Positions 265 through 33,823 of a DNA stretch of 40,761 nucleotides are shown piece after piece. The notes under the pieces are model-generated. The model saw only the letters and a list, made by a program, of their open reading frames with translations. It made no database searches and had not been told where the DNA came from. Position 1 is the stretch's first letter. Every line of letters begins with the position of its first letter. Source of the stretch: an uncultured Lachnospiraceae bacterium (lineage in GTDB: Bacteria; Bacillota; Clostridia; Lachnospirales; Lachnospiraceae). The stretch spans positions 1 to 40,761 of the forward strand of contig CANTEW010000022.1 in NCBI GenBank assembly GCA_947652925.1, written 5' to 3'. The position numbers were made by a program, and so were the translations under genes.

Positions 265-316
265 ACCGAACAGTCCTTTCTGAGTTATACTCAATAGAAC
301 TGTTCGGTATTTTTTT
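265..316. terminator. Bidirectional rho-independent terminator
   Basis: ACCGAACAGT (265-274) and ACTGTTCGGT (299-308) form a perfect 10-bp stem, with a T-run on the plus side (309-316) and an A-run on the other. It lies directly after the sulfotransferase stop codon, so it ends the cysD-cysNC-sulfotransferase transcript. It could also stop transcription entering from the left. Confidence 0.85.
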
Positions 317-1466
317 ACGCAGCCGTATCGGACGACCATCTATTCCTCAGCTTCTTCATAAAAGTCTGTATCTTATTTCTCAATCTGTGCATAAAACCAT
401 TGGGATCCTCTGTCATGATCATTTGCTCTTTCCTGTCCAGGTCGCAGATAACGATAAAGCGCACCAGGTCAGTCAACATGTCCGGGTTATCTTTTTTCCA
501 TTTTTCCGGCGGGTCATCTTTCTCCAGGAAAAGCGATCCCCCATCTGCAAAGAACATCTGGTATAACTGTTCATTAGAATCCGCATATTTTTCCATAAAA
601 TCAGACGCCTCCGCAGGAGAGAACATCCGGCGGAGTGTTTCTCCATCAGAATGCTCTGAAAGATCCCTCAGCAGTCTTTCATAGCGCCAGCGCTCTTTAA
701 GCTCCACTTCCGGCATACCATTGATGATCCTCTTGATCTCACAGAGGTTCTCTGACATCCTCGTATTCTTGACAGACTGCTCCGGGATCCGATACTCATC
801 TGTCAACCTCAATCCCAAGATGTCCATAAAATCAGCCAACAGCGAACCGTCCACAAAATACTTTTTGTGAAAACGGCGCACGATGATATTTTCCACTCCA
901 AACTCATCTGCGGCTGCTTTCAGCAGGGTGAAATAATCCAGATTGATATATTGGGGATAGACTTCAAGATATCTTTCCCATTTCATGGCATTGCTCTCTG
1001 AGATCCCATGCTTTACAGTCTGGTTCCACCAGGATTCCACCAATTCATCCTGTCTCCTTATATAAGCGATGACTTTAACGATAAATCCGCCCTTCTCAGC
1101 TTCTTTGTGCAGATCTCTCCAGATACTCTTTCTCCGTTTCGTAGCCGCCCGCCAGATCCCTTCGTCAGAAAGGATGACTTGATCATACGTCTCAAATACT
1201 TCCTGGAGCCTCTCCATGCCGTCTTTTAAGATCTCAGCCTCTTTCTCTTTATCGCGGACTCCGTTCTCATCCATATATACGGCTTCCAGAAAGAGTCCGT
1301 TGCGTCTGGCAGGATTCAATCGTGAGCGGTTATGGGGGTAATCATGAGGAAAAATGGGAAAACAATATCCCTTTTCTTCCAGCACATCCTTGTTCACATG
1401 ACAGAAGTGTTGGATAGAAGTAGTCCCAGTCCTCGGCGATCCTATATGCAGGTATAATGTTTTCAT
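315..1466 (-). CDS. PAPS-dependent sulfotransferase (P-loop family)
   Basis: Predicted 383-aa cytoplasmic enzyme that would transfer sulfate from PAPS to an unknown acceptor. The N-terminus has the 5'-phosphosulfate loop, GSPRTGTTS at residues 9-17, after a beta strand LYLHI. Around residues 131-148 a strand is followed by R137 and S145, the R-x7-S spacing of the 3'-phosphate-binding site of sulfotransferases. The rest is charged and has no membrane segment. I chose the ATG at 1466 because GAGGAG lies 6 bases upstream; a longer in-frame reading would add 15 residues without support. The gene is last in the operon after cysD and cysNC, which make PAPS, so the assignment rests on both motif and context. 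The acceptor (capsule, wall glycan, lipid or small molecule) cannot be read from sequence. Confidence 0.82.
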   Translation of the reverse strand: MKTLYLHIGSPRTGTTSIQHFCHVNKDVLEEKGYCFPIFPHDYPHNRSRLNPARRNGLFLEAVYMDENGVRDKEKEAEILKDGMERLQEVFETYDQVILSDEGIWRAATKRRKSIWRDLHKEAEKGGFIVKVIAYIRRQDELVESWWNQTVKHGISESNAMKWERYLEVYPQYINLDYFTLLKAAADEFGVENIIVRRFHKKYFVDGSLLADFMDILGLRLTDEYRIPEQSVKNTRMSENLCEIKRIINGMPEVELKERWRYERLLRDLSEHSDGETLRRMFSPAEASDFMEKYADSNEQLYQMFFADGGSLFLEKDDPPEKWKKDNPDMLTDLVRFIVICDLDRKEQMIMTEDPNGFMHRLRNKIQTFMKKLRNRWSSDTAA

Positions 1467-1532
1467 CCATAACTCCTCACTTTCTCTCAGTCTATATCTT
1501 GACCCACCCACCTAAAAAAAATCACTCTCTGC

Positions 1533-3356
1533 TCAATCCAGACCCAATCGGCTAATGATCTGCTCCACAGCCTCTTCCATCGTACATTTGCTGGTGTCCA
1601 CCTGGATATCCGGCTCTACAGGCGGTTCATAATCACTGGAGATCCCTGTGAAATTCGGGATCTCTCCTCGGCGGGCTTTCGCATACAAGCCCTTCACATC
1701 CCTCTGCTCACAGACTTCCAGCGGTGTACTCACATAGATCTCCACAAAGCCATCCCCTATGATCCTCCGGGCATTCTCACGATCTTGCCTGTAGGGGGAG
1801 ATAAATGCCGTCAGTACGATCAGCCCTGCATCGTTCATCAGCTTGGAAACCTCCGCCACCCGGCGGATATTCTCTATCCTGTCCTGATGGGTAAAGCCCA
1901 GATTCCTGCACAGTCCCATACGTACATTATCACCATCCAGGAGCATTGTATGCTTCCCTAAGGCCAAAAGACGTTTTTCCAAGGCATTGGACAAGACTGA
2001 TTTTCCCGCGCCGGACAGTCCCGTAAACCATAGTGTCAGGGGTTTCTGGCCTTTCTGCGCCGCACGCATCTGCCTGGTCACGTCCGTCTCCTGCCATACG
2101 AGATTGTCCGAACGCCGCAGATCGTGCTTGATGACCCCGCAGGCGGAAGTCATGTTGGTCACCCTGTCCGTGAGGATGAAACCGCCCAGCGCTCCGCATC
2201 TGCTGAACTTATCCATAACGACTTTTTCAGACAGGGATATCTGACAGTCTGCGATCTCATTTTTATAGATCACATCTGCCGGGACATGTGTCCCATCGTT
2301 GATATCTACCTTATATTTTACAGACATCACCGTTCCCGGCGTTGTCTTTGTCCCAAGTTTTACCAGATAATTCTTCCCCGGGATCAGCGGTTCATCGTCC
2401 ATCCACAAAAGGCGGGCGGAGAACATATCACTGACCATCCCGGTAAAGTCGCTCACCAGCACACATCCTCTGGAGACGTCCACCTCCCTGTCCAGAGAGA
2501 CAGAGACAGGACATCCCGCCCCCGCTGTCTCCACAGCCGTATCGCCCCGGTAGATAGACTTCACCTTGGCTTTTTCTCCTGTCGGCAGTACAGTGATCTG
2601 GGAAGACACGGAGATACTCCCCGCTTCGATCTGCCCCTGGAAACCCCGGTAATCAGAATTTGGACGGCATACCCGCTGGACCGGCATCACGAGGCCAGCA
2701 TCTTCTTTCTCCCGTTCAGATATATCTACCTGCTCCAGATAAGTCAAGAGCGGCCTGCCGGTATACCAACCCATTTTCTCGGAGGGGCTGGTGATGTTAT
2801 CACCTTTTGTGGCCGATACCGGGATACTGCAATAACTTTCCACCTGGAAGCCTGCGATGATCTTCTCCAGCTCTTCCACCACCCCATCAAAGTGATTTCT
2901 ATTATAATAGACAAGATCCATCTTATTGATGGCAAAGACAAAATGCCGGATACCCATCAGGTTGCAGATCCGTATATGCCGCCTGGTCTGCCGTTGTACC
3001 CCTTTCGCCACATCTACCAGGATCACAGCCAGATCCGCAAAGGAGGCGCCCACCGCCATATTCCGGGTATACTCTTCATGTCCCGGTGCGTCAGCTACGA
3101 TAAAACTGCGGGCATCTGTAGAAAAATACCGATACGCCACGTCTATGGTGATCCCCTGCTCTCTCTCTGCCATCAGTCCGTCCAGGATCAGCGAATAATC
3201 CAGAGAACCGTCCCGGCTCTTCAATCTGCTGTCCAGCTCCAGCGCCCTGCGCTGATCCGCATACAGGAGTTTTGCATCATATAGCATATGTCCGATCAAG
3301 GTGGACTTTCCGTCATCCACACTGCCGCACGTAAGAAATTTCAATAAATCCATCAT
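1533..3356 (-). CDS. cysNC: Bifunctional sulfate adenylyltransferase large subunit / APS kinase
   Basis: A 607-aa fusion of CysN and CysC, the NodQ arrangement. The CysN half is an EF-Tu-like GTPase with G1 GSVDDGKST (11-19), G3 DAPGH (89-93) and NKMD (144-147), followed by beta-barrel domains to about residue 425. It drives ATP sulfurylase with CysD. The CysC half starts near 438, with Walker A GLSGAGKS (446-453), DGDNVRMGL and the FISPYR segment containing the phospho-acceptor Ser520. It phosphorylates APS to PAPS. All key residues are intact. The start ATG overlaps the cysD stop by one base, implying translational coupling. There is no cysH (PAPS reductase) beside it. With a sulfotransferase downstream, the product PAPS is probably used for sulfation, which is inference. 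Confidence 0.95.
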   Translation of the reverse strand: MMDLLKFLTCGSVDDGKSTLIGHMLYDAKLLYADQRRALELDSRLKSRDGSLDYSLILDGLMAEREQGITIDVAYRYFSTDARSFIVADAPGHEEYTRNMAVGASFADLAVILVDVAKGVQRQTRRHIRICNLMGIRHFVFAINKMDLVYYNRNHFDGVVEELEKIIAGFQVESYCSIPVSATKGDNITSPSEKMGWYTGRPLLTYLEQVDISEREKEDAGLVMPVQRVCRPNSDYRGFQGQIEAGSISVSSQITVLPTGEKAKVKSIYRGDTAVETAGAGCPVSVSLDREVDVSRGCVLVSDFTGMVSDMFSARLLWMDDEPLIPGKNYLVKLGTKTTPGTVMSVKYKVDINDGTHVPADVIYKNEIADCQISLSEKVVMDKFSRCGALGGFILTDRVTNMTSACGVIKHDLRRSDNLVWQETDVTRQMRAAQKGQKPLTLWFTGLSGAGKSVLSNALEKRLLALGKHTMLLDGDNVRMGLCRNLGFTHQDRIENIRRVAEVSKLMNDAGLIVLTAFISPYRQDRENARRIIGDGFVEIYVSTPLEVCEQRDVKGLYAKARRGEIPNFTGISSDYEPPVEPDIQVDTSKCTMEEAVEQIISRLGLD

Positions 3357-4255
3357 CAGAAATAACCCTCTCTCTTTCGGCGTTCCATACTCCCTGTTTC
3401 TTCATGGTCGATCACCCGGCTCGTCCTCTCCGATGTGACTTCTCCCAGAGTTTCCTTTACGATCTCTTCCAAAGTGTCAGCCTCTGACTCAACAGCGCCT
3501 GTCAGGGGATAACACCCCAAAGTCCTGAAACGCACTTTCTTCTGCTGGATCTCTTCACCTTCCTTTAATCTCATACGATCATCATCTACCATGATCAGAT
3601 TGCCGTCCCTGAAGACCACAGGCCTTTCCTTTGCAAAATACAGCGGGACGATATCAATGTGTTCCCGGCAGATATATTGCCAGATATCTTTCTCTGTCCA
3701 GTTTGACAGCGGGAATACCCTCATACTCTCGCCGGCATGGATCCGGGTATTGTAAAGCTTCCACATTTCCGGTCTCTGGTTCTTCGGATCCCATCCGTGG
3801 CTCTCATTCCGGAAAGAGAAGACCCGTTCTTTGGCACGGGATTTTTCTTCATCCCTGCGCCCTCCGCCGAAAGCCGCTGTGAACTTGTAATGATCCAATG
3901 CCTGCCGCAGGGCCTGCGTTTTCATGATGTCTGTATACGCCGCCCCGTGGTCAAAGGGATTGATCCCCTGCCGGACCCCGTCCTGATTGGTGTAGACCAG
4001 CATCTCGATCCCCAGCTCTTTGGCTTTCCTGTCCCGGAACTCTATCATTTCATGGAACTTCCATGTGGTATCTATATGGAGAAATGGAAAAGGCGGCTTC
4101 TCCGGATAAAACGCTTTCATCGCTAGATGGAGCATCACCGAACTGTCCTTCCCGATCGAATAAAGCATGACTGGCTTTTCGCATTCTGCGGCCACTTCAC
4201 GCATGATATAAATGGCCTCAGCCTCTAATTCATCTAAATGAGAGTGTGTACTCAT
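3356..4255 (-). CDS. cysD: Sulfate adenylyltransferase small subunit
   Basis: A 299-aa protein of the PAPS reductase/PP-loop ATPase superfamily. It forms APS from ATP and sulfate as the partner of CysN. The PP-loop [11 protein letters not shown] sits near residues 37-47, and [14 protein letters not shown] and HIDTTWKF are typical of CysD. Length is normal for the family. I chose the ATG at 4255, giving [15 protein letters not shown], which matches the usual CysD start. An upstream in-frame TTG adds five residues but crowds the purine-rich GGAAAGG. It is the first gene of the sulfation operon. Confidence 0.95.
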
Positions 4256-4357: not shown

Positions 4358-6001
4358 TTATTTTTCTGAAAATGTAAGCGAGATCAATGTGGAGACCGGA
4401 TCCCCCTCACTGTATTCTATGGTGACTTTATCACCCACGTCGCAGCGCAGCACTTCCATGTACTCTGTCAGCGGCACGTCAAAGATCAGGTCGCTGTCCT
4501 CCAGGACAAGATAAAAATGCGTATTGCCCTCGATGACCCCCTGCGCGATCCGCTGGATCGTTCCCTGTATCTTCTGGGAACCCTGCGCATCCGAGACAGG
4601 ACTCCCGCCCGACTTGAGCATCTTCACATATGTCTGCTCGCAGGCAGCTACAGTGTCCCCGATCGCTACATTCTGATATTTCTGGATATTGACCATGGCA
4701 TATTTTTTCACCAGTCCCGCATTATCCTTCAGAGCGATAAAATACGTGGGCTCATCCGCGATATTCAACAACAGCGGAAACGTGGCCCTGTAACCCAAGT
4801 TCTGTACCTGTCCTTCCGCGGACTCCATAGCCGAATACTCTTCCGCGCCCGCCACTTCATAATAGCGTGTCTCCCTGGTCCGCTGGTTGATCAGCACAAA
4901 TCCCACGTTTGACCGGTCCCCACTGACAGATGTGACGCCTGTATAGACCCACACATCATCATCAAGAGCCAGATAATTATACCCTTCCGTGGTCTTCAGG
5001 CACCCTTTCTGTCCCAGGATGCTGTTGAAAAACCCGTGTACCAGAGTACCGTGGTAATCATAAAGCTCGATGAGCAGATCCGCCGGATAGACCCGGTCCA
5101 CCCAGGTGGGACAGTCCTCCACAGGCATAGATTCGCATTCCCCGGTCACTGCATTGCACAGCACGACCTTTCCGATCGTCTGTCCGCCGAACAGACCGAT
5201 GGTAAACTCTTTCACCGGACAGATCCAGTACGGCGTCCCCTCGTCGTCGATCTCAAAGCTCAGCTGGTCGAAGATATATGTGGGGTAATGGAACCGGAGG
5301 TGTCTGTAGATATTCCGGTTAAAATATTCCGACTCTGAATAACGGATACCCGGTGACAATTTGACCAGATCCGTATTCTGTGTGGCCATGTCGATGGTGA
5401 TATATGCAGGGATACCCTGCTTCTGATTGGTCAGCCACTTGATCGGGCTGGCATACACCAGCGGCGTCACCCGCACAGGCCTGCCTTTCACATTGATCTG
5501 GGAATAGATACTGCTCACTTCAAACTGTGAGACCATATCCACCATACTCCCCATCTTCCGGTTTCCCAGAAGTTCTGCGGAATCTTTATCCAGCAATGGG
5601 ATCTTATCATAATCGACGGGCTCCACATCCTCTGTAAAGTCCCTGACCTCAGGTTCCAAAAGCTTCTGGTATCTCTTGGCATTCACCACAGGCGAAGAGA
5701 GGACAGACCCGGCTATATAGAATAAAAACACCCCGCAAAAAAGGACCAGGACAGATCTGACGCTCTTTTTGCTCTTCAGTTCCTTCAGATCCCTGATCCC
5801 TCCGGCCAGATCCCCTCTCCTGCCCTTTCCAGACATGGCCCGCACCGCCACGATGACCACGATCACCGCCAGCAGCGAAAGGATAAATGTCCAGAAACCT
5901 GCCGCGTGGATATTGATCGCGGGCAATGAGATATAATAATAGATACAGATCAAGACCAGGACCACTAATAGGACGATCCCTGTCCGTTTCCAATGCTTCA
6001 T
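4358..6001 (-). CDS. Uncharacterised membrane-anchored protein
   Basis: A 547-aa protein I do not recognise. Hydrophobic segments at about residues 7-27 and 36-53, then a third at about 83-106, are followed by roughly 440 residues without further membrane spans. The predicted topology is three N-terminal helices and a large domain, probably outside the cell. That domain is rich in beta-forming stretches and acidic residues and lacks an obvious catalytic motif. The start ATG overlaps the RNase E/G stop (ATGA), so it is co-translated with the radical SAM/RNase operon and is its last gene. No terminator was seen in the 100-base gap towards cysD. Function unknown. Confidence 0.75.
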   Translation of the reverse strand: MKHWKRTGIVLLVVLVLICIYYYISLPAINIHAAGFWTFILSLLAVIVVIVAVRAMSGKGRRGDLAGGIRDLKELKSKKSVRSVLVLFCGVFLFYIAGSVLSSPVVNAKRYQKLLEPEVRDFTEDVEPVDYDKIPLLDKDSAELLGNRKMGSMVDMVSQFEVSSIYSQINVKGRPVRVTPLVYASPIKWLTNQKQGIPAYITIDMATQNTDLVKLSPGIRYSESEYFNRNIYRHLRFHYPTYIFDQLSFEIDDEGTPYWICPVKEFTIGLFGGQTIGKVVLCNAVTGECESMPVEDCPTWVDRVYPADLLIELYDYHGTLVHGFFNSILGQKGCLKTTEGYNYLALDDDVWVYTGVTSVSGDRSNVGFVLINQRTRETRYYEVAGAEEYSAMESAEGQVQNLGYRATFPLLLNIADEPTYFIALKDNAGLVKKYAMVNIQKYQNVAIGDTVAACEQTYVKMLKSGGSPVSDAQGSQKIQGTIQRIAQGVIEGNTHFYLVLEDSDLIFDVPLTEYMEVLRCDVGDKVTIEYSEGDPVSTLISLTFSEK

Positions 6002-31068: not shown

Positions 31069-31338
31069 ATGGAAAATAGAAAAGATACGCGGATCGCGGT
31101 CATCACGATCATCGTAGAGGACAGAGATTCTGCCGACGATCTGAACCGCCTGCTCCACGAGTTCGGGGACTACCTGGTCGGTCGGATGGGCGTACCCTAT
31201 CGACCAAAAGAAGTATCCGTCATCTGCGCCATCCTGGATGCGCCCCAGGATGTGATCAGCGCTCTGTCCGGCAAGATCGGCATGCTCCCGGGCATCACCA
31301 GCAAGACTGTATATTCTAAGGTCCAGGACAAGCCATGA
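31069..31338 (+). CDS. TM1266-family putative hydrogenase regulator
   Basis: An 89-aa protein with an ACT/NikR-C-like fold pattern (AVITIIVEDRDSADDLNRLL, then VSVICAILDAPQDVISALSGKIGMLPGI). This family is regularly encoded with [FeFe]-hydrogenase genes and has been called a putative regulator; its effector is unknown. I chose the ATG at 31069 behind AAAGGAAG. It overlaps hydE by an ATGA and sits right after the attenuator leader. Confidence 0.88.
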   Translation: MENRKDTRIAVITIIVEDRDSADDLNRLLHEFGDYLVGRMGVPYRPKEVSVICAILDAPQDVISALSGKIGMLPGITSKTVYSKVQDKP

Positions 31339-32375
31339 AAGAGTATATTGACAGATTAAGAGAAGAACACACCCTGGACAGAGAGGGATTCCTCACACTG
31401 CTCTCCCGGCGGGACCCCGCCACGCAGGAATATGCCATGGAAGAAGCTGTCAAGGTACGCCGGCAGATCTATGGTAAAGATATCTATATCCGCGGCCTGG
31501 TGGAGATCACCAACTATTGTAAAAACAATTGTTACTACTGCGGGATCCGCAGAGAGAATAGAAAGGCCAGCCGCTACCGGCTCACTCCTGACCAGATCCT
31601 GGACTGCTGCAGAGACGGATACCAGCTGGGATTCCGCACATTCGTGCTGCAGGGCGGAGAAGACGGGTGGTATACAGATGAGATCCTCACCGCGGTCATC
31701 AAAGATATCAAGAGAGAATTCCCTGACTGCGCCGTCACCCTCTCCCTTGGAGAACGCACTTTCGAAAGTTATCAGAAATTGTACGATGCGGGGGCCGACC
31801 GTTATCTGCTCCGCCACGAGACGGCTACTGAGGAGCATTACCGGAAGCTCCACCCCCAGGACCTTTCCCTGGAGGACAGGAAAACATGCCTCAGGGACTT
31901 AAAAGAGATCGGATACCAGGTCGGCGCCGGCTTCATGGTGGGCTCTCCCGGACAGACATACGCGCACCTTGTGGAGGACCTGCTGTTCCTTCGGGGACTT
32001 TCCCCCCACATGGTGGGTATCGGCCCCTTTTTGAGCCATCAGGACACACCCTTTGCCAATGAGCCAAACGGAGACCTGGACCTTACTTTATTTCTTTTGG
32101 CACTGATCCGCCTGATGCTGCCGAAGGTCCTGCTGCCGTCCACCACCGCCCTGGGCACACTGCACCCGGACGGACGGAAACTGGGGATACTGGCAGGCTG
32201 CAACGTGGTCATGCCCAACCTCTCCCCCTCCGGGGTCAGAGAAAAATACCTGCTCTACGACAATAAGATCGCCACAGGCCTGGAAGCTGCGGAGTCCATA
32301 GACCTGTTAAAAAGACAGATGGAAGAGATCGGATACCGGATCGTCTGCGCCAGAGGAGACTATCCGGTATCATAA
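31335..32375 (+). CDS. hydE: [FeFe] hydrogenase H-cluster maturase HydE
   Basis: A 346-aa radical SAM enzyme that helps build the dithiolate-bridged 2Fe subcluster. The SAM cluster motif is CKNNCYYC (C62, C66, C69), followed by GIRRENRKASRYRL and LQGGEDGWYT. GAGFMVGSPGQT and GPFLSHQDTPFA are family signatures. Length is typical. HydG follows 29 bases later. HydF and the hydrogenase itself are not in the window. Confidence 0.95.
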   Translation: MKEYIDRLREEHTLDREGFLTLLSRRDPATQEYAMEEAVKVRRQIYGKDIYIRGLVEITNYCKNNCYYCGIRRENRKASRYRLTPDQILDCCRDGYQLGFRTFVLQGGEDGWYTDEILTAVIKDIKREFPDCAVTLSLGERTFESYQKLYDAGADRYLLRHETATEEHYRKLHPQDLSLEDRKTCLRDLKEIGYQVGAGFMVGSPGQTYAHLVEDLLFLRGLSPHMVGIGPFLSHQDTPFANEPNGDLDLTLFLLALIRLMLPKVLLPSTTALGTLHPDGRKLGILAGCNVVMPNLSPSGVREKYLLYDNKIATGLEAAESIDLLKRQMEEIGYRIVCARGDYPVS

Positions 32376-32404
32376 ATATAAATATCACACATATGGAGGA
32401 AACT

Positions 32405-33823
32405 ATGTATAACGTAAGATCAAAAAAAGCAACAGAATTCATCGACCACCAAGAGATCCTGGATACCCTGGAGTATGCCGAGAAGAATAAAGGCAACCGG
32501 GAACTGATCGGACAGCTGATCGAACGGGCACGGGACTGCAAAGGCCTGAGCCACCGGGAAGCCGCCCTGCTCCTGGAATGTGACCAGCCCGACCTGATCG
32601 AGAAGATGTACAAAGTCGCAAAAGAGATCAAAGAAAAATTTTACGGCAACCGTATCGTGATGTTCGCCCCCCTCTACCTCTCCAACTACTGCATCAACGG
32701 CTGCGTGTACTGTCCCTACCATGCAAAAAATAAACACATCGCCCGCAAGAAGCTGACCCAGGAAGAGATCCGCCGGGAAGTGATCGCCCTCCAGGACATG
32801 GGCCACAAGCGGCTGGCGCTGGAGACCGGGGAAGACCCCAAGAACAACCCGATCGAATACGTGCTGGAGAGTATCAAGACCATCTACAGCATCAAACACA
32901 AAAACGGCGCGATCCGCAGGGTCAATGTGAACATCGCCGCCACCACCGTAGAAAATTACCGGAAATTAAAAGAAGCCGGGATCGGCACATATATCTTATT
33001 CCAGGAAACTTACCACAAAGAGAACTACGAAGCCCTCCATCCCACAGGTCCCAAGAGCGATTATGCCTATCATACTGAGGCCATGGACCGGGCGATGGAA
33101 GCGGGGATCGACGATGTGGGCTGCGGCGTACTCTTCGGACTGAACACATACCGTTATGACTTCGTGGGTCTCCTGATGCACGCGGAACACCTGGAAGCAG
33201 CTATGGGAGTAGGCCCCCACACGATCAGCGTACCCCGTATCTGTCCGGCAGATGATATCTCCACTGACGATTTTGAAAACGCCATCGACGACGAAACTTT
33301 CCAGAAGATCGTGGCCGTCATCCGTATCGCCGTGCCTTATACGGGCATGATCATCTCCACAAGAGAGTCCAAGACCTGCCGGGAAAAAGTATTAGACCTG
33401 GGCATCTCCCAGATCAGCGGCGGCTCCCGCACCAGTGTGGGCGGTTATGTGGAAGAAGAACCTGAGGAAGAAAACTCTGCTCAGTTTGACGTGACCGACC
33501 GCCGTTCCCTTGACCAGGTGGTAAACTGGCTGCTGGAACTGGGCTATATCCCCAGCTTCTGTACTGCCTGTTACAGAGAAGGCCGCACCGGAGACCGCTT
33601 CATGTCCCTGGTAAAATCCGGCCAGATCGCCAACTGCTGCCAGCCAAACGCCCTCATGACCCTGAAAGAATACCTGGAAGACTATGCCTCCCCAGATACC
33701 CGGGCCAAAGGCGAGAAAGTGATCCAGGAAGAATTGGAGAAGATCCCCAGAGAAAAGACGAAAGAGATCGCCGCCAAGAACCTCAAGGAGATCGAAGCGG
33801 GAAAAAGAGATTTCAGATTTTGA
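32405..33823 (+). CDS. hydG: [FeFe] hydrogenase H-cluster maturase HydG
   Basis: A 472-aa radical SAM tyrosine lyase that makes CO and cyanide ligands for the H-cluster. The SAM motif is CINGCVYC (C96, C100, C103). The C-terminal auxiliary cluster pair is present in SFCTACYREGRTGDRFM. ISGGSRTSVGGY and the GPHTISVPRICPA segment also match. I chose the ATG at 32405, with GGAGG five bases upstream; a start four codons earlier would lie before that site. A terminator follows at 33838-33879. Confidence 0.96.
   Translation: MYNVRSKKATEFIDHQEILDTLEYAEKNKGNRELIGQLIERARDCKGLSHREAALLLECDQPDLIEKMYKVAKEIKEKFYGNRIVMFAPLYLSNYCINGCVYCPYHAKNKHIARKKLTQEEIRREVIALQDMGHKRLALETGEDPKNNPIEYVLESIKTIYSIKHKNGAIRRVNVNIAATTVENYRKLKEAGIGTYILFQETYHKENYEALHPTGPKSDYAYHTEAMDRAMEAGIDDVGCGVLFGLNTYRYDFVGLLMHAEHLEAAMGVGPHTISVPRICPADDISTDDFENAIDDETFQKIVAVIRIAVPYTGMIISTRESKTCREKVLDLGISQISGGSRTSVGGYVEEEPEEENSAQFDVTDRRSLDQVVNWLLELGYIPSFCTACYREGRTGDRFMSLVKSGQIANCCQPNALMTLKEYLEDYASPDTRAKGEKVIQEELEKIPREKTKEIAAKNLKEIEAGKRDFRF

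Follow-up and report, generated by a model that had tools for sequence, protein, structure and literature searches.

Three adjacent genes of an uncultured Lachnospiraceae bacterium (assembly GCA_947652925.1), namely cysD, a cysN-cysC fusion (cysNC) and a gene for a probable sulfotransferase (ST1), appear to form a dedicated sulfation module. They lie on the minus strand of contig CANTEW010000022.1, which was analysed over its full length of 40,761 nucleotides (hereafter the window; it is the entire contig C22 of genome G000, and the sequence stops at position 1). Gene neighbourhoods suggest, as the likeliest acceptor of the module, a lipid-linked surface glycan sulfated inside the cell before its export, a reading we consider probable as a whole. 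The gene content, the gene order, their conservation and the failure to find cysH are direct readings of the sequence. The source genome is 2.92 Mb long and 98% complete. It was compared with a set of 397 genomes of the same bacterial family, and 14 control genomes were used for the marker-model searches. Genomes, contigs and loci are designated by G-, C- and L-numbers, respectively. Open reading frames (ORFs) were chosen by length, so that some of those listed are antisense, and many names of neighbouring genes were read by eye.

The cysD gene (3356-4255, minus strand) encodes the 299-residue sulfate adenylyltransferase subunit 2 (ATP sulfurylase) with the SIGKDS motif, which scores 498 bits with TIGR02039 (cut-off 396.6) and 528 bits, also above cut-off, with PRK12563. 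One base is common to its stop and to the start of cysNC (1533-3356, minus strand; 607 residues), a fusion of the ATP sulfurylase GTPase subunit with adenosine-5'-phosphosulfate (APS) kinase that scores 812 bits with PRK05506 against a cut-off of 715. Its GTP_EFTU and APS_kinase domains both exceed the Pfam cut-offs, and the motifs GSVDDGKST, DAPGHE and NKMD can be read in it. The APS kinase half, intact according to the original prediction, is confirmed as such by PF01583 (7.3e-66), by apsK TIGR00455 (252 bits at residues 421-603) and by the motif GLSGAGK. CysD and the two-domain CysNC protein (GTPase and APS kinase), all passing curated cut-offs, make up a CysD-CysNC module for the synthesis of 3'-phosphoadenosine-5'-phosphosulfate (PAPS).

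The ORF of ST1 spans 315-1511; the likelier start is the ATG at 1466, preceded by a GAGGAG ribosome-binding site, which gives a gene at 315-1466 (minus strand; 383 residues) starting 66 bases downstream of cysNC. The unit is closed by an intrinsic terminator on the minus strand at about 257-317 (-34.7 kcal/mol, z -7.1), with a T run after the stem. This hairpin came from folding against shuffles, 0 of 200 of which fold equally well; the simple terminator scan had not listed it. The order cysD-cysNC-ST1 is found again in G002, G004 and JAAWJJ010000025.1. In the last of these, where cysD and cysNC are read as several pieces, the block stands between other flanking genes, and the block itself is therefore regarded as the unit. 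Family models, gene order and hairpin thus agree with the earlier proposal of one minus-strand unit with a terminator. Upstream of cysD, positions 4358-6001 of the minus strand encode a 547-residue protein with a hydrophobic N-terminus that matches no Pfam or NCBIfam family; the gene keeps this place in G002 and G004, whereas in JAAWJJ010000025.1 it does not precede the block.

ST1 belongs to a divergent family and is probably a PAPS-dependent sulfotransferase. It gives no significant Pfam or NCBIfam match, and no match to a sulfotransferase family up to E 1. Like the members of the PAPS-dependent sulfotransferase superfamily (PF00685, PF13469), it has an N-terminal P-loop-type motif (G9-S-P-R-T-G-T-T16) and an R-x7-S motif (R137...S145); unlike them, it passes no Pfam cut-off. 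We take these motifs to be the 5'-phosphosulfate-binding (5'-PSB) and 3'-phosphate-binding (3'-PB) elements of such enzymes. Among 25 family members searched up to E 0.1, PF13469 was matched in five (best 0.021) and PF00685 in three (best 1.6e-4), and no Pfam or NCBIfam model was found for the ST1 family itself. As a single sequence, ST1 found matches in only 5 of 98 related genomes, all of its own genus, and a profile was therefore needed to see the family: with an 11-row profile, homologues were found in 24 of the 397 genomes.

The motif columns are well kept. In a 43-row alignment, G9, T13, T15, R137 and Q139 are present in every row, K12 in 42, S145 in 41 and G14 in 39. This set leaves out both copies on C45 of G001 (L025), the G003 copies (L026, cut by the contig end, and L030), the G234 and G212 fragments, the third G230 fragment, the divergent copy on C16 of G145 (L118) and the G151 copy. 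Structural comparison was less decisive: a 25-row profile found two matches in the PDB, the better being the sulfotransferase 3rnl at E 0.69, and the 11-row profile found none. In the 3rnl match the two motif regions align in the right order, though each stretch by itself falls short of significance. An hhalign comparison with the recognised sulfotransferases of loci L120 and L121 gave E 0.00056 over 99 columns with a probability of only 30%. In the tree, ST1 groups with its relatives from G002, G004 and JAAWJJ010000025.1 (100/100). The labels are clustered on it, "near cysDNC" requiring 4 changes against a shuffled mean of 9.5 and "near glycopolymer genes" 2 against 8.0. No match to ST1 was found in the phage collection searched for a phage origin.

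The family is closely tied to PAPS synthesis. A strong APS kinase (E below 1e-25), present in 52 of the 397 genomes, occurs in 23 of the 24 genomes with an ST homologue and in 29 of the 373 others (Fisher p 7e-22, in a test that treats genomes as independent although G000 and G004 are of one genus). The sole exception is G212, which is 79% complete and has a marginal ST match. In 16 of the 24 genomes an ST gene lies within 6 kb of an APS kinase gene, against 0.15 expected under random placement, the distance having been picked after the loci had been seen. Several of these blocks also hold CysQ, CHR-type transporters, or ABC transporters of the sulfate and NMT1 types. In G239 and G032 (L120, L121), the slot behind cysNC is occupied by a different, Pfam-recognised sulfotransferase. 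Two other loci were noted in passing. L129:2872-14511 (G026:C54) holds cysD-cysNC and CysQ within a glycan-like locus; a nucleotidyltransferase gene and a phosphonopyruvate-decarboxylase-like one accompany them, the non-cys genes being read by eye. At L123:281-9738 (G289:C10), in a genome without an ST-family match, TagD-like and large Glyphos_transf genes stand directly upstream of cysD-cysNC.

The PAPS made by this unit is probably used for sulfation and not for assimilation, since no cysH was found and the genome encodes CysQ and an importer for sulfate. In the genome, PF01507, which covers both cysD and cysH, matches cysD alone; the same search was positive in 14 of 14 controls. The aprA model has no match in any of the four genus genomes, in a test that lacks a positive control (0 of 14 controls pass its cut-off). 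TIGR00434 (cysH) is above cut-off in none of the 397 family genomes but passes in only 7 of the 14 controls, and for this reason the family-wide absence is weaker than that in the source genome; long ORFs (about 550-850 residues) in other family genomes have sub-threshold scores of up to 72 bits. The importer is of the CysPTWA type (G000:C28:7308-10876), its binding protein and both permeases being above cut-off and its ATPase read by eye. CysQ is encoded at G000:C61:3409-4188 (TIGR01331, 234.6 bits against a cut-off of 228.8). The two would complete a pathway in which sulfate enters and 3'-phosphoadenosine-5'-phosphate (PAP) is removed. No SulP sulfate permease was found in the four genus genomes, three of which have a CHR-type transporter that shares a contig with the PAPS locus only in G002.

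Ordinary assimilatory reduction, in which CysDNC would feed a PAPS reductase and a sulfite reductase and the sulfotransferase would be a chance neighbour, is largely refuted and hardly credible any longer. Apart from the sulfate importer, it could draw on a complete anaerobic sulfite reductase, asrABC (G000:C4:8073-10849, equal to L022:8073-10849), with asrA, asrB and asrC all above cut-off, and on an orphan NIR_SIR protein at C66; the genome has two NIR_SIR matches, both on contigs other than the window. An APS or PAPS reductase was not found in the genome, and asrABC without it could not, by gene content, be fed from the CysDNC pathway. As asrABC is present, sulfite from another source would be reducible; an enzyme that turns APS or PAPS into sulfite was not found. 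That cysD is the only PF01507 protein, that aprA is unmatched and that the proximity of ST to APS kinase recurs across genomes all argue against assimilation. The earlier view that PAPS serves sulfation is thereby upheld, by the genome-wide search for cysH and by the sulfotransferase as a recurrent partner. The accompanying claim that cysH and sulfite reductase genes are absent here, together with the proposed check for an assimilation locus elsewhere, came out divided for the genome: cysH was not found, and sulfite reductase was, in the form of asrABC.

One pointer to a glycan as the acceptor is a paralogue. ST2 (G000:C15:20742-21869; 33% identical to ST1) terminates a locus that encodes a Bac_transf protein, Glyphos_transf proteins, a cytidylyltransferase, a TagH/Wzt-like ABC protein and FrhB, and, as read by eye, a pyruvyl-transferase-like gene. 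ST2 also stands next to a phosphoglycan locus in G001, G002 and G004. Because ST2 ends a phosphoglycan locus with an exporter, a surface glycan linked to a lipid is the likeliest acceptor. In G210 (with five tandem STs), G194 and G213, which represent three further genera, 0.9-4.3 kb separate an ST gene from one for Glyphos_transf. TagD-like genes were found in G000, G194 and G213, and the exporter in G000. The resemblance of ST2 and its relatives in these three genera to teichoic-acid type loci (TarF, TagD, TagGH) lies in the neighbouring TarF-like genes. It differs from true teichoic-acid loci in that the TarF-like and TagH-like proteins score under the NCBIfam equivalog cut-offs, for which reason the polymer may be something other than a true teichoic acid. 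At L098:8570-14307 (G210:C37), in a genome of 1.6 Mb, the five tandem sulfotransferase-like genes stand by a pyruvyl transferase, a Glyphos_transf and an IspD-like cytidylyltransferase gene. A third ST in G004 adjoins a Glyphos_transf protein and is near NeuB-like and nonulosonate-phosphatase-like genes (below equivalog cut-offs).

Counted over 23 of the 24 ST genomes (G212 left out), Glyphos_transf lies within 6 kb of ST in five genomes of four genera, against 0.46 expected (simulated tail 5e-5); only three genomes fall within 3 kb. Leaving out G004 gives 4 of 22 (0.39 expected, tail 5e-4), and widening the distance to 10 kb gives an expectation of 0.69 and a tail of 3.4e-4. Outside the phylum, tblastn returned 79 plasmid records, two of which, each with a distant relative, were examined for gene neighbourhood. 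On Phaeobacter inhibens pPGA1_65 (L145:7330-10047), a 905-residue protein annotated as glycosyltransferase family 4 (GT4) has a match to the GT4 domain at residues 348-468 and an ST-like part in frame near residues 558-841; it is a probable glycosyltransferase-sulfotransferase fusion, and its gene lies within an export and polysaccharide locus. In Gloeothece, the genes on either side of the relative encode glycosyltransferases, a pyruvyl transferase and ABC transporters. G9, T13, G14, R137, Q139, D140 and S145 are retained in both. Among the acceptors first suggested (surface glycan, lipid or small molecule), the surface glycan is now the likeliest, from the position of ST2 and its relatives near glycan genes; for ST1 itself this acceptor is an extrapolation.

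Several observations weigh against a surface glycan made into a sulfated polymer by functional ST enzymes. In the source genome ST1 has no glycan genes next to it; the proximity to polymer synthesis genes holds for ST2 and its relatives in three other genera. In 18 of the 23 counted genomes no Glyphos_transf lies within 6 kb of ST, and at the ST loci L103, L105, L109-L111 and L113 no glycan-synthesis gene was recognised by eye. The asrABC genes show the cell able to reduce sulfite from some source. Position 12 of the P-loop is Arg in ST1 against Lys in 42 of 43 rows, and one G001 copy, outside the 43-row set, is degenerate both in the P-loop, which reads PKTDATA, and in the 3'-PB, where Tyr stands in place of R137. 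This tandem copy, L025:656-1744 (G001:C45), is likely a decaying paralogue.

The last two points also feed the proposal that PAPS or PAP serves some other purpose, or that an unknown reductase is fed, and that ST1 is degenerate. The G001 copy does show that ST copies decay, and an Arg replaces the P-loop Lys in ST1. Arg is tolerated at this position in other sulfotransferases. ST1 keeps G9, T13, G14, T15, T16, R137, Q139 and S145, shares 63-69% identity with its orthologues and retains its gene order, which makes degeneration very unlikely. The loss of PAPS-binding residues in homologues, which had been named as a check, was accordingly seen in the one G001 copy; most homologues have kept them (core columns in 39-43 of 43 rows).

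A small molecule as the acceptor (a sterol, bile acid, phenol or secreted metabolite) is a less remote alternative, though still unlikely. It is suggested by the isolation of ST1 from glycan genes, by the several ST loci without a recognised glycan-synthesis neighbour and by a precedent of the same layout in gut Bacteroides. The BT_0411-0416 cluster there comprises PAPS synthesis genes, a sulfotransferase and a proposed sulfate importer, and BT_0416, which a BLAST search with human SULT2A1/2B1 had brought up, was shown to sulfate cholesterol (PMC9417993). The two systems share PAPS genes directly beside a sulfotransferase, and differ in that ST1 has no significant sulfotransferase Pfam match and its relatives are often among glycan genes. 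The informative neighbours argue for the glycan instead: they are glycan genes at ST2, L098, L101 and L104, by eye at L106 and L115, and in Phaeobacter and Gloeothece, and one family member is fused to a glycosyltransferase.

With a lipid-linked surface glycan as the preferred acceptor, the pathway would run as follows. Sulfate would enter through the CysPTWA-type importer and be adenylated to APS by CysD and CysN, and the CysC half would phosphorylate APS to PAPS. ST1 would then transfer the sulfuryl group to a hydroxyl of a cytosolic acceptor, and the by-product PAP would be cleared by CysQ. One PAPS pool could serve ST2 too, at the end of the teichoic-acid-like phosphoglycan locus with its TagH/Wzt-like exporter, so that the lipid-linked glycan would be sulfated on the inner face and exported afterwards. 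We infer the enzymatic activities, PAPS as the donor and the acceptor, that of ST1 least surely. It is conceivable, and proposed tentatively, that the ST family, which is coupled to a dedicated PAPS operon in many genera of the bacterial family, sulfates teichoic-acid-like phosphoglycans; such cells would then have sulfated surface polymers.

The unit had originally been likened to rhizobial nodPQ-nodH, in which nodPQ are a dedicated ATP sulfurylase and APS kinase. The layout bears this out, dedicated enzymes of both kinds standing alongside a sulfotransferase; the enzyme itself does not, as ST1 is not matched by PF13469 and the phylum is different. According to a 2024 review (PMC11625862), PF13469 recognises NodH, the substrate of which is a secreted glycolipid. 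The nearer precedent is the Bacteroides BT_0411-0416 cluster. The same review speaks of six bacterial genera reported as makers of sulfated polysaccharides, and a 2026 paper considers such polysaccharides uncommon among bacteria if cyanobacteria are set aside (PMC13390465). The latter paper also describes the wps-1 cluster of Actinoplanes missouriensis, for which a sulfated surface polysaccharide is predicted in a Gram-positive bacterium, the authors calling experimental verification pending (PMC13390465). The ST module resembles wps-1 in the predicted sulfated surface polymer; wps-1 differs in belonging to an actinomycete, in its Wzx/Wzy pathway and in its two sulfotransferases of other recognised families. 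Among the literature matches listed, none had a title on teichoic-type polymers bearing sulfate or on the ST family in Lachnospiraceae, and sulfated cell-surface polymers were not seen described for Firmicutes.

The gene module, probably one for sulfation, is real and conserved, and its acceptor is possibly new. If the glycan reading is correct, sulfated surface polymers are made in a group of gut-type Firmicutes by an enzyme family missed by general annotation, and the sulfate taken up would go to a surface polymer and not to sulfide production. Sulfate would give the bacterial surface a likeness to the glycosaminoglycans and mucins of the host, with possible effects on charge, adhesion, recognition by the immune system and the binding of phages. 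A cultured relative would allow a direct test.

Over the whole window, scans for RNA elements gave just one tRNA and no other element, and the promoter scan was uninformative (9 sites against 8.3 expected). The contig end (1-230) holds a repeat, 52 bases of which are 94% identical to L022:11044-11095, downstream of asrC, and 112 bases 85% identical to L020:9961-10072; this repeat may be the cause of the assembly break. At 31335-33823 lie two radical S-adenosylmethionine (SAM) genes, of which the second encodes a BATS domain; by their arrangement we take the two to be, perhaps, the hydrogenase maturases HydE and HydG.

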